Shown here in pieces: positions 2 to 54,970 of a DNA stretch of 64,000 bases (the stretch's first letter is position 1; the number at the start of each line of letters is the position of its first letter). The translations under genes were made by a program, and so were the position numbers. The DNA lies in NCBI RefSeq assembly GCF_006094695.1, contig NZ_CP035103.1, positions 1,550,001-1,614,000 of the forward strand, in the 5' to 3' direction. This DNA is from Kocuria rosea (GTDB taxonomy: Bacteria; Actinomycetota; Actinomycetes; Actinomycetales; Micrococcaceae). The notes below the pieces were generated by a model. That model saw nothing but the letters and a program-made list of their open reading frames with translations, ran no database searches and was not told the DNA's origin.

Positions 2-1928
<1,927 letters not shown>

Positions 1929-49812: not shown

Positions 49813-49888
49813 GGCCCCATCGTATAGCGGCCTAGTACGCCGCCCTCTCACGGCGGTAACGCGGGTTCGAATCCCGCTGGGGTCACCA
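49813..49888 (+). tRNA. tRNA-Glu (anticodon CUC), copy 1
   Basis: 76 nt including encoded CCA. The acceptor GGCCCCA pairs with TGGGGTC (one G-U pair). The anticodon stem CCGCC/GGCGG encloses CTCTCAC, with anticodon CTC. Identical to copy 2. Confidence 0.97.
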
Positions 49889-50039: not shown

Positions 50040-50115
50040 GGCCCCATCGTATAGCGGCCTAGTACGCCGCCCTCTCACGGCGGTAACGCGGGTTCGAATC
50101 CCGCTGGGGTCACCA
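50040..50115 (+). tRNA. tRNA-Glu (anticodon CUC), copy 2
   Basis: Identical over all 76 nt to copy 1, including the encoded CCA. It has its own likely promoter (TACAGT at 49993-49998) and its own terminator. Confidence 0.97.
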
Positions 50116-53629: not shown

Positions 53630-54685
53630 TCAGGGGCCGCTCCGGCCGTCCTCGCCCCGGTCCGCGGAGGCGGCCCGGGACGGCCGCAGGGGTTGGAGCG
53701 CCGCGAGCTCGGCGGGGGTCGCGGTCCGGAACGGCGGGGCCTCCGGGCACTGCGGCGCCCGCCGCCCCTGCCCGCGGGTGGCGCGCAGGCTCGTGCCGAC
53801 CGACACGACCAGGACGGCCGTGATCACCGCGAGGGAGACTCCCGTGGGGATGTCGACCACGTCGACCTTGAGCGCCATCTTCACCCCCACCCACACCAGG
53901 ACCAGGGCCAGCCCGGCGCGCAGGTGCACGAAACGGTGCATCAGGTCCGCCAGCAGGAAGTACATGGCCCGCAGCCCCAGCACGGCGAAGGCGTTGGCGG
54001 TGAAGACGATGTAGACCTCGTCGGTGACCGCGAAGACGGCCGGGATCGAGTCGACGGCGAAGACCACGTCGGTGGCCTCGATCAGCACCAGCACCGCCAG
54101 CAGCGGCGTGGCCCGCAGCGTCCCGCCGACGCGCACCACGAGCCGCTGCCCGTAGAACACCTCGGTCATCGGCACGCAGCGGCGGAAGACCCGCAGCACC
54201 GCCGACCGGTCCGGGTCAAGACGCGCCTCCCGCTGCCGGAGCATCCGCCACCCGGTGCAGAGCAGGAACGCGGCGAAGAGGTAGAGCACTCCCTCGAAGG
54301 CGTGGATCAGCGCCGCGCCCGCGGCGATGAAGGCGCCGCGCAGCACCAGCGCCCCGAAGACGCCCAGGAACAACACCTGGTGCTGGTAGGCGCGGGGGAC
54401 GGCGAAGTACGTGAGCAGGACCGCCCAGACGAACACGTTGTCCACGGAGAGCGACTTCTCGATCAGGTACCCGGCGAAGTACTGCTGGCCGGCCTGCGAC
54501 CCGAAGACGGCCCAGACCACCACCCCGAAGCCCGTTCCGCAGGCCACCCACACCGCCGTCCACACCGCGGCCTCGCGCAGCCCGATCGCGTGCGGGCGCC
54601 GGTGGGCGAGCAGGTCCACGGCCAGCAGGACCACGATGCCGCCGATCACCGCGGCCCACCCCCAGAACGGGACGTCCATCGCCAC
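53630..54685 (-). CDS. TerC-family membrane protein (manganese efflux)
   Basis: 351 residues with about nine membrane helices and a 45-residue charged C-terminal tail. The core motif is IEATDVVFAVDSIPAVFAVT, with SLSVDNVFVWAVL in the first half; acidic residues in both would bind a divalent cation. TerC/Alx proteins export Mn2+, and some load metal onto secreted enzymes. The manganese riboswitch directly upstream makes a manganese role here very likely. GTG 54685 with GGAGG 7 bases upstream; an ATG two codons later is less well spaced. Confidence 0.92.
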   Translation of the reverse strand: MAMDVPFWGWAAVIGGIVVLLAVDLLAHRRPHAIGLREAAVWTAVWVACGTGFGVVVWAVFGSQAGQQYFAGYLIEKSLSVDNVFVWAVLLTYFAVPRAYQHQVLFLGVFGALVLRGAFIAAGAALIHAFEGVLYLFAAFLLCTGWRMLRQREARLDPDRSAVLRVFRRCVPMTEVFYGQRLVVRVGGTLRATPLLAVLVLIEATDVVFAVDSIPAVFAVTDEVYIVFTANAFAVLGLRAMYFLLADLMHRFVHLRAGLALVLVWVGVKMALKVDVVDIPTGVSLAVITAVLVVSVGTSLRATRGQGRRAPQCPEAPPFRTATPAELAALQPLRPSRAASADRGEDGRSGP

Positions 54686-54692
54686 CAGCCAC

Positions 54693-54801
54693 CCTCCGGT
54701 TCCCGACCGGAGGTCTCTCCCGGCCCGTTCCGGGCCCGCGCGCCGGATCCTGCGGGGGACCGTCGTGACGACGCTGCGCGGGGGGATACTCCCCTCCTGG
54801 C
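54693..54801 (-). ncRNA. yybP-ykoY manganese riboswitch
   Basis: Read on the minus strand, the leader contains the conserved blocks of this class in order. GGGGAGTA is at 54794-54787, GTCGTCA lies within the 54773-54761 element, and GAGACC is in the 3' strand (54717-54712). P1 pairs CC(A)GGAGG (54800-54793) with CCTCCGG (54713-54707). The same CCTCCGG can pair with CCGGAGG (54699-54693), which contains the terC ribosome site. Mn2+ binding would hold P1 and free the site, so translation turns on when manganese is high. The class and its link to TerC are established; the fold here is read by eye. Confidence 0.85.
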
Positions 54802-54807
54802 CCCTCC

Positions 54808-54836
54808 AGCGAACCCCGCCCCGCCCTCCGCGTCAA
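54808..54836 (-). promoter_or_regulatory. Promoter of the terC riboswitch transcript
   Basis: TTGACG (54836-54831), a 17-bp spacer and TTCGCT (54813-54808) on the minus strand. Transcription would start near 54801, directly at the 5' side of P1. Confidence 0.55.
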
Positions 54837-54970
54837 GAGGCGTGGCGAGCTCCCGCAGCGGCGCTGCGCGGGTCCCCGGTGCTACGCTCCGCAGTGAGCC
54901 GGGGGATCCGCCCGGCGACGACGGCGGGGCCTCCCGCCCAGCCCGTCCGCACCGCTCCAGCCCCTCCCGG

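Follow-up and report, generated by a model that had tools for sequence, protein, structure and literature searches.

The leader of the terC gene on the minus strand of the window (the whole stretch of 64,000 nucleotides of Kocuria rosea DNA analysed here) is very probably a riboswitch of the yybP-ykoY type at 54797-54693. It is likely to bind Mn2+, and terC translation is predicted to be turned ON by locking of an anti-ribosome-site strand into helix P1. What is new is this particular member; Mn2+ sensing and the ON direction, like the class itself, are already established, as described in the available portions of PMC6754395 and PMC11647493. In the open-licence papers searched, neither a VIT1-linked member nor an actinobacterial platform of P1 and the ribosome site was found described. 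The direct coupling, in which a single strand serves P1 and the ribosome-site hairpin alike, is notable for its compactness: the start codon follows the predicted transcript start by about 115-120 nt. Such a leader would lend itself well to tests of how Mn2+ turns translation ON in high-G+C bacteria.

Conserved yybP-ykoY blocks, alternative pairing strands and promoter hexamers had been named in this leader by the first-pass annotation, and reading of the sequence verified the minus-strand positions of all of them (Table 1). Two features of the class are present: the L1 blocks GGGGAGUA and GAGACC are enclosed by P1, and L3 (UCGUCACGAC) carries an adenosine, A54766, which is the counterpart of the Mn2+-sensing A41 of L. 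lactis (UCA41AU43UC; position according to the available text of PMC6754395). Helices P1.2, P3 and P4 are predicted and covary; P2 is absent, and a three-way junction is predicted. Judged from the sequence, a local L3 hairpin CGTCG-TCA-CGACG could also be formed in the window, which is a point against the riboswitch reading.

Table 1. Features of the terC leader and related elements. Positions are those of the window, except for the last two rows (genome or locus positions). R2, A1 and A5 are the covariance model and alignments described in the text.
Feature	Position	Strand	Basis
terC leader with yybP-ykoY aptamer blocks	54797-54693	minus	sequence
P1/L1 block GGGGAGTA		minus	sequence
L3 block GTCGTCA		minus	sequence
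L1/P1 block GAGACC		minus	sequence
P1 5' strand GGAGG	54793..54797	minus	sequence; A5 helix 1; RNAalifold on A1
L1 5' side GGAGTAT	54786..54792	minus	A1: GGAGTA invariant, T nearly so
P1.2 5' strand CCC, partner 54721-54719	54783..54785	minus	A5 helix 2, 97.7% paired
P3.1 5' strand CGC-A-GCG	54772..54778	minus	A5 helices 3 and 4; bulged A from reading of the sequence
L3 5' side UCGUCACGAC	54762..54771	minus	alignment A1
P3.2 hairpin GGTCC/GGATC	54746..54761	minus	sequence; A5 helix 6, 86.6% paired
L3 3' side CGG	54743..54745	minus	sequence, alignment A1
P3.1 3' strand CGCGCG	54737..54742	minus	sequence; A5 covariation
P4 hairpin GGCCCG-GAA-CGGGCC	54722..54736	minus	sequence; A5 helix 7, 78.0% paired
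P1.2 3' strand GGG	54719..54721	minus	A5 covariation
L1 3' side AGAGA	54714..54718	minus	alignment
P1 3' strand CCTCC, the switching strand	54709..54713	minus	partners 54797-54793 or 54697-54693
CCTCCGG	54713-54707	minus	sequence
Alternative OFF hairpin CCTCCGGT-CGGGA-ACCGGAGG over the ribosome site (predicted)	54693..54713	minus	-13.5 kcal/mol; kept in relatives
terC ribosome binding site GGAGGG (by position)	54692..54697	minus	sequence; contains GGAGG 54697-54693
Likely promoter: TTGACG 54836-54831, 17-nt spacer, TTCGCT 54813-54808	54808..54836	minus	sequence
terC, TerC/Alx-family membrane protein, 351 aa from GTG	53630..54685	minus	PF03741; TIGR03718
Fourth copy, before a VIT1-family gene (PF01988)	2943423-2943537 (L233:924-1038; gene L233:1112-2254)	plus	R2, Pfam
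Loci of the two-form L3 comparison	L095, L098, L105, L106, L109, L111, L234-L263, L265-L290		

The check proposed by the first-pass annotation was a search with the Rfam yybP-ykoY model. This model, RF00080 (Rfam 15, gathering cut-off 45 bits), produced zero matches in the window at the cut-off and none within 54650-54950 even up to E 10, which is formally the outcome that the annotation had named as refuting its reading. In searches run with stricter filters, RF00080 was above the cut-off in 0/149 genomes of the window's family and in 1/296 genomes of the phylum (13/296 at E 0.01), while some match at E 10 appeared in 47/149 family genomes, the best of them at 23 bits. Among 14 well-known genomes searched as controls, 2 had matches above the cut-off. 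E. coli alx and mntP are reported Mn-sensing riboswitches (PMC9603457, in the part of that paper available); in 7.5 kb of E. coli K-12 DNA, RF00080 gave mntP 41.6 bits, which is under the cut-off, and listed nothing for alx up to E 1. In its alignment with mntP, RF00080 leaves the GAGACC side unmatched, and its structure line marks no pairing for P1. Because mntP is sub-threshold and alx is unlisted, the silence of RF00080 is weak evidence against the class, the 45-bit cut-off does not define the class, and RF00080 was abandoned as the deciding test. For the terC-leader riboswitch there is a notable, near-complete blind spot of Rfam 15 in the window's family, and Mn control of many actinobacterial genes would stay unannotated under the current model.

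The reading of the leader as a member of the riboswitch class is upheld by independent models which find both the window and E. coli alx. Covariance model R1 comprises 21 leaders, the window included, and model R2 comprises 72 actinobacterial relatives, none from the window's genome, aligned using R1. At E 0.01, R1 has matches in 141/149 family genomes (seed genomes among them) and 65/296 phylum genomes, compared with the 0/149 and 1/296 reached by RF00080. When R2 is run on the whole genome (3.95 Mb), the window holds the best match with 66.2 bits and an E-value of 1.0e-12, the E-values of these models being rough; within the window this match is the single clear one, with a runner-up at 15.4 bits. 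In the same 7.5 kb of E. coli DNA, alx is first and mntP second with both models, at 28.8 and 11.4 bits by R1 and at 40.3 bits (E 5.8e-9) and 15.2 bits (E 0.011) by R2. Recovery of alx and mntP by models made from actinobacteria only is the strongest membership test available here.

The helices are supported by covariation. In alignment A5, which is that of R2 and is fitted to the R1 structure, 90.5% of cells are paired (69.7% in shuffles), two-sided changes occur in 19/22 pairs, and the covariation score is 0.566 (0.186 shuffled; 0/500 shuffles as high). None of the 500 shuffles attains any of the five measures, and column slides of 1-3 lower the pairing to 33-54%. P1 (helix 1) has 98.3% of cells paired with two-sided changes in four of its five pairs, and P3.1 (helices 3 and 4) is 89% paired with two-sided changes in 6/6 pairs. 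RNAalifold on the unfitted MAFFT alignment A1 of 21 leaders yields 17 pairs, 9 of them changing on both sides, P1 included. Alignment A3, in which the P1.2 strand was split, was left unused for the models. The stability of the whole leader is no greater than that of shuffles (z +0.90); being uninformative, it was discarded as evidence.

One strand with two exclusive partners, P1 and the terC ribosome site, had also been proposed, and the sequence confirms it. CCTCC could pair either with GGAGG at 54797-54793 (P1) or with the ribosome-side strand, in the latter case as part of a helix of 8 bp between CCTCCGGT (54713-54706) and ACCGGAGG (54700-54693), calculated at -13.5 kcal/mol. This competition is conserved in most leaders. 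Unique aptamers having P1 and the L. lactis-type L3 (159 in number) were collected by regular expression, and the 124 with a TerC start 20-80 nt downstream were used for the count of the platform, 35 being dropped. The 9-nt P1 3' region scores at least 6 against its own downstream strand in 103/124 terC leaders, compared with 7.9% when shuffled. Mean pairing with the own strand is 6.86 versus 5.15 +/- 0.10 with swapped downstream strands (maximum 5.54 of 10,000), a difference inflated by the mutual relatedness of the 124 leaders, many of which come from a pattern fixing the AGGGGAGTATCCC and CGTCGTCA blocks. Nucleotides 5-9 alone, mostly outside P1, reach 4.24 with the own strand versus 3.48 +/- 0.06 with swapped ones; since this extension shows the same excess, the pairing signal is not only ribosome-site consensus. 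The strands also change together: CCTTC is accompanied by P1 GAAGG and ribosome-side GAA (L002, L066, L137, L210), and CTTGT by GCAAG and ACAAG (L051, L055, L056). Scores below 6 are found in 21/124 leaders; the window's family contributes 18 of these 21, and CTTGT/CTTGC arms are present in 14. The predicted P1-coupled translational platform is present in the window and is conserved with co-change, and it is not universal.

Strong as the OFF hairpin is by itself, it is highly improbable that the leader lacks a metal aptamer and is a plain hairpin over the ribosome site (a thermosensor or a protein target). Conservation and covariation in the 5' 85 nt go far beyond the needs of such a hairpin, and the switching strand and the P1 5' strand change together.

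In the preferred reading as a metal-responsive translational switch, CCTCCGGT would pair with ACCGGAGG when metal is lacking, and GGAGG would be hidden (OFF state). Mn2+ held between L1 and L3, at A54766, would cause the docked aptamer to stabilise P1 (54797-54793 with 54713-54709). Formed P1 would block the OFF hairpin, ribosomes could reach GGAGG (ON state), and TerC could then handle excess Mn2+. The calculated energetics fit an OFF default: the free minimum-energy fold of the leader contains the OFF hairpin and lies at -64.5 kcal/mol versus -53.3 kcal/mol with P1 forced, which is about 11 kcal/mol against P1. The five ribosome-site pairs of the OFF hairpin have a mean probability of only 0.46 in the free ensemble, in which the site is covered by alternative pairings as well. 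Forcing P1 opens the ribosome site incompletely, its bases being unpaired with probabilities of 0.41-0.98. Since the free fold is favoured over P1, switching would have to depend on the metal, on tertiary contacts and on co-transcriptional folding, and the window's copy could be mostly OFF.

Transcription could be the main output of the same Mn2+ aptamer, if ribosomes were kept off the mRNA by the closed site and its synthesis were terminated by Rho, translational control making up only part of the effect. For E. coli mntP, whose Mn2+ riboswitch is translational, Rho termination at the riboswitch is likewise described in the available text of PMC11647493. No intrinsic terminator was found at the terC leader, which is compatible with Rho, and intrinsic termination was dropped as an output. 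In 96/124 leaders, however, the paired downstream strand contains an SD-like word or has one no more than 4 nt away. A conserved strand that coincides with the ribosome site or adjoins it suggests that translation is the step controlled first; a mainly Rho-dependent output appears unlikely.

For the translational switch favoured here, the transcript would start near P1, at a predicted position close to 54800. The promoter claimed by the first-pass annotation holds in part: both hexamers and the 17-nt spacing are in place, but a strict sigma-70 consensus scan found no promoter at the terC leader. Hexamers resembling a -10 element lie 7-12 nt 5' of P1 in 52/56 orthologue-like leaders (3.9% in shuffles), as counted with a hexamer list derived from these very 56 leaders, and one further leader of the 56 has such a hexamer 20 nt before P1. 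The terC product matches PF03741 at E 3.1e-51 and TIGR03718 (R_switched_Alx) with 381.7 bits (cut-off 246.4). Two start codons are candidates: GTG at 54685, 6 nt past GGAGGG, and ATG at 54679, which is 12 nt past GGAGGG and is aligned with M[DN]VP of the relatives.

Separately from the riboswitch, a palindrome TGAA-N6/7-TTCA overlapping the -10 region is found within 60 nt upstream of P1 in 35/56 orthologue-like terC leaders (e.g., L006, L010, L134 and L178) and is absent from the window; 50 mononucleotide shuffles of each leader contained 0. It is possibly the operator of a metal-dependent repressor, by which terC would come under double control.

A TerC query has matches in 149/149 family genomes. 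TerC orthologues at 65-70% identity are present in 10 family genomes besides the window's own, and the blocks stand directly before the start codon in 10/10 of these orthologue leaders and also in the leaders of more distant TerC genes. Among the 30 best TerC loci, the motif was found by pattern in 25, those without it being L013, L015, L016, L023 and L030. The exact core pattern occurs in at least 118 stretches, 80 of which are listed by name; among the matches listed are Arthrobacter, Citricoccus, Kocuria, Blastococcus, Modestobacter, Pseudonocardia, Rhodococcus, Dietzia, Corynebacterium, Thermoleophilia and Acidimicrobiia, and the sole listed record from outside the phylum (L162) has no complete aptamer. 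This version of the leader, with P1 competing for the ribosome site, was thought worth describing by the first-pass annotation; it is common in Actinomycetota and no peculiarity of the window's genome.

Outside the window's family, R1 has 81 matches in phylum genomes, and 49 of them were examined (29 fetched automatically, 20 hand-chosen), 3 being situated at contig ends. The 46 readable downstream regions comprise 28 TerC, 7 P-type ATPase and 6 GDT1 genes, 3 of the latter assigned by the AELGDKSQ motif only, which makes 41/46 for these three families. The rest are one Na/Ca exchanger, two M50 peptidases, one PGPGW protein and one gene without a Pfam family. In total, 64/87 R1 matches examined precede TerC (tblastn), many of the 87 loci having been picked via TerC or as family top matches and the extra-family set being less biased. 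The available part of a review (PMC7380456) reports a UPF0016/GDT1 member under yybP-ykoY control in 328/333 screened strains having one. In L081 and L103 the aptamer precedes M50-family peptidase genes with CBS domains. Two divergent aptamers separated by 143 nt occur in L052 (1265-1357, minus strand, and 1501-1596, plus strand); a P-type ATPase gene follows one of them and a baeRF_family3 gene the other.

Several known systems resemble the terC leader. The solved aptamers of L. lactis and X. oryzae share with it the L1/L3 blocks, the Mn2+-sensing A and the P1.1 switch helix, whose stabilisation by Mn2+ in X. oryzae requires A48, but they have a four-way junction in place of the predicted three-way one (PMC6754395, available portion). 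According to the same portion, the output of the X. oryzae riboswitch is antitermination, unlike the translational output predicted for terC. E. coli mntP is likewise a translational Mn2+ riboswitch whose ribosome site is inaccessible without Mn (PMC11647493, in the text available); it differs in the presence of a P2 hairpin, in the GUCAACAUAC form of L3 and in having no obvious P1-strand/ribosome-site hairpin by eye. In C. glutamicum, the cg2157 (terC) leader was already listed as yybP-ykoY with a transcript start observed by RNA-seq (PMC3890552, accessible part); it belongs to the same phylum and gene family.

The closest likeness is to the E. coli alx leader, which has P1, GGGGAGUA, an UCGUCANUACG L3 and GAGACC, and precedes a TerC-family gene annotated as the Mn2+ exporter Alx. 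Its gap from GGAGUA to GUCA is short (19 nt) and leaves no room for a P2 hairpin. Across the 159 aptamers the median gap between GGAGUA and CGUCA is 17 nt (range 3-30, with 4 at 26-30), so most of them also lack room for P2. Since alx shares this architecture, a four-way junction is not class-defining, and the short-gap form is an existing sub-type. Unlike that of the window, the alx P1 3' strand is opposite GGCGAGGTC, some 65 nt upstream of the annotated start (by eye), and not opposite the ribosome site of its own gene. E. coli alx is responsive to alkaline pH. With alx as the best cross-phylum match, and with an alkalization circuit for mntP named in the title of PMC9603457 (the part considered here), the physiological signal of an alx-like leader could be mainly alkaline pH or another divalent metal and not Mn2+. 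L3, however, retains the Mn2+-sensing A in its L. lactis form, and the genes of the relatives are mostly cation transporters of Mn-tied kinds; such a signal is quite unlikely. Sensing of Mn2+ is the favoured reading, although the identity of the metal, the ON direction and the role of TerC are presumptive for the window locus.

Four R2 copies are present in the window's genome: the window's own, two before terC paralogues and one before a VIT1-family gene. The paralogues are in tandem, each with its own R1/R2 match (2276590-2276719 and 2275039-2275168, L092). One of their leaders has a CTTAC arm and pairs weakly with the ribosome-site region (score 5); the other, with a CTTGC arm, was left out of the 124, its called start being 89 nt away. 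The VIT1-gene copy contains a P2 hairpin (by eye) and shows UCGCCAUC in L3 where its relatives show UCGACAUAC. Complete VIT1-type leaders were found at 17/30 VIT1 loci in family genomes.

Two forms of L3 can be distinguished. The L. lactis-type form UCGUCANNNC (after GGAGUA[UC]) is situated before TerC in 141 cases and before P-type ATPases in 10 (by motif), and the X. oryzae-type form UCG[AC]CA (after GGAGUAG) before GDT1 in 10 cases (mostly by motif) and VIT1 in 15. No crossing of the forms was found among TerC, P-type ATPase, GDT1 and VIT1, a result in which the pattern-found loci force the first form. Both forms occur within the window's own genome. Of 39 further elements without a gene call, 7 were read by eye, giving 2 GDT1-like and 5 Na/Ca exchanger-like genes with the second form. 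Na/Ca exchangers thus stand behind both forms, the first in L084 and the second in L277 and others. An A-to-G change at the Mn2+-sensing base of VIT1/GDT1 leaders, read from TCGACATAC, was considered and rejected: the X. oryzae sensing A is placed within ACA48UACU by the available text of PMC6754395, and the sensing base is therefore kept in these leaders. It is conceivable, although rather doubtful, that Actinomycetota possess two gene-matched lineages of the Mn2+ aptamer, and that the TerC leaders of Actinomycetota share a single ancient lineage with E. coli alx. The L3 form would then be a dial separating TerC from the GDT1/VIT1 exporters by metal threshold or metal. The presence of Na/Ca exchangers behind both forms makes this less likely, and the split by gene is only partial.

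Elsewhere in the window, two tRNA genes (49813-49885 and 50040-50112, plus strand) lie 227 nt apart; they have an equal Rfam score, and their aligned sequence is identical.
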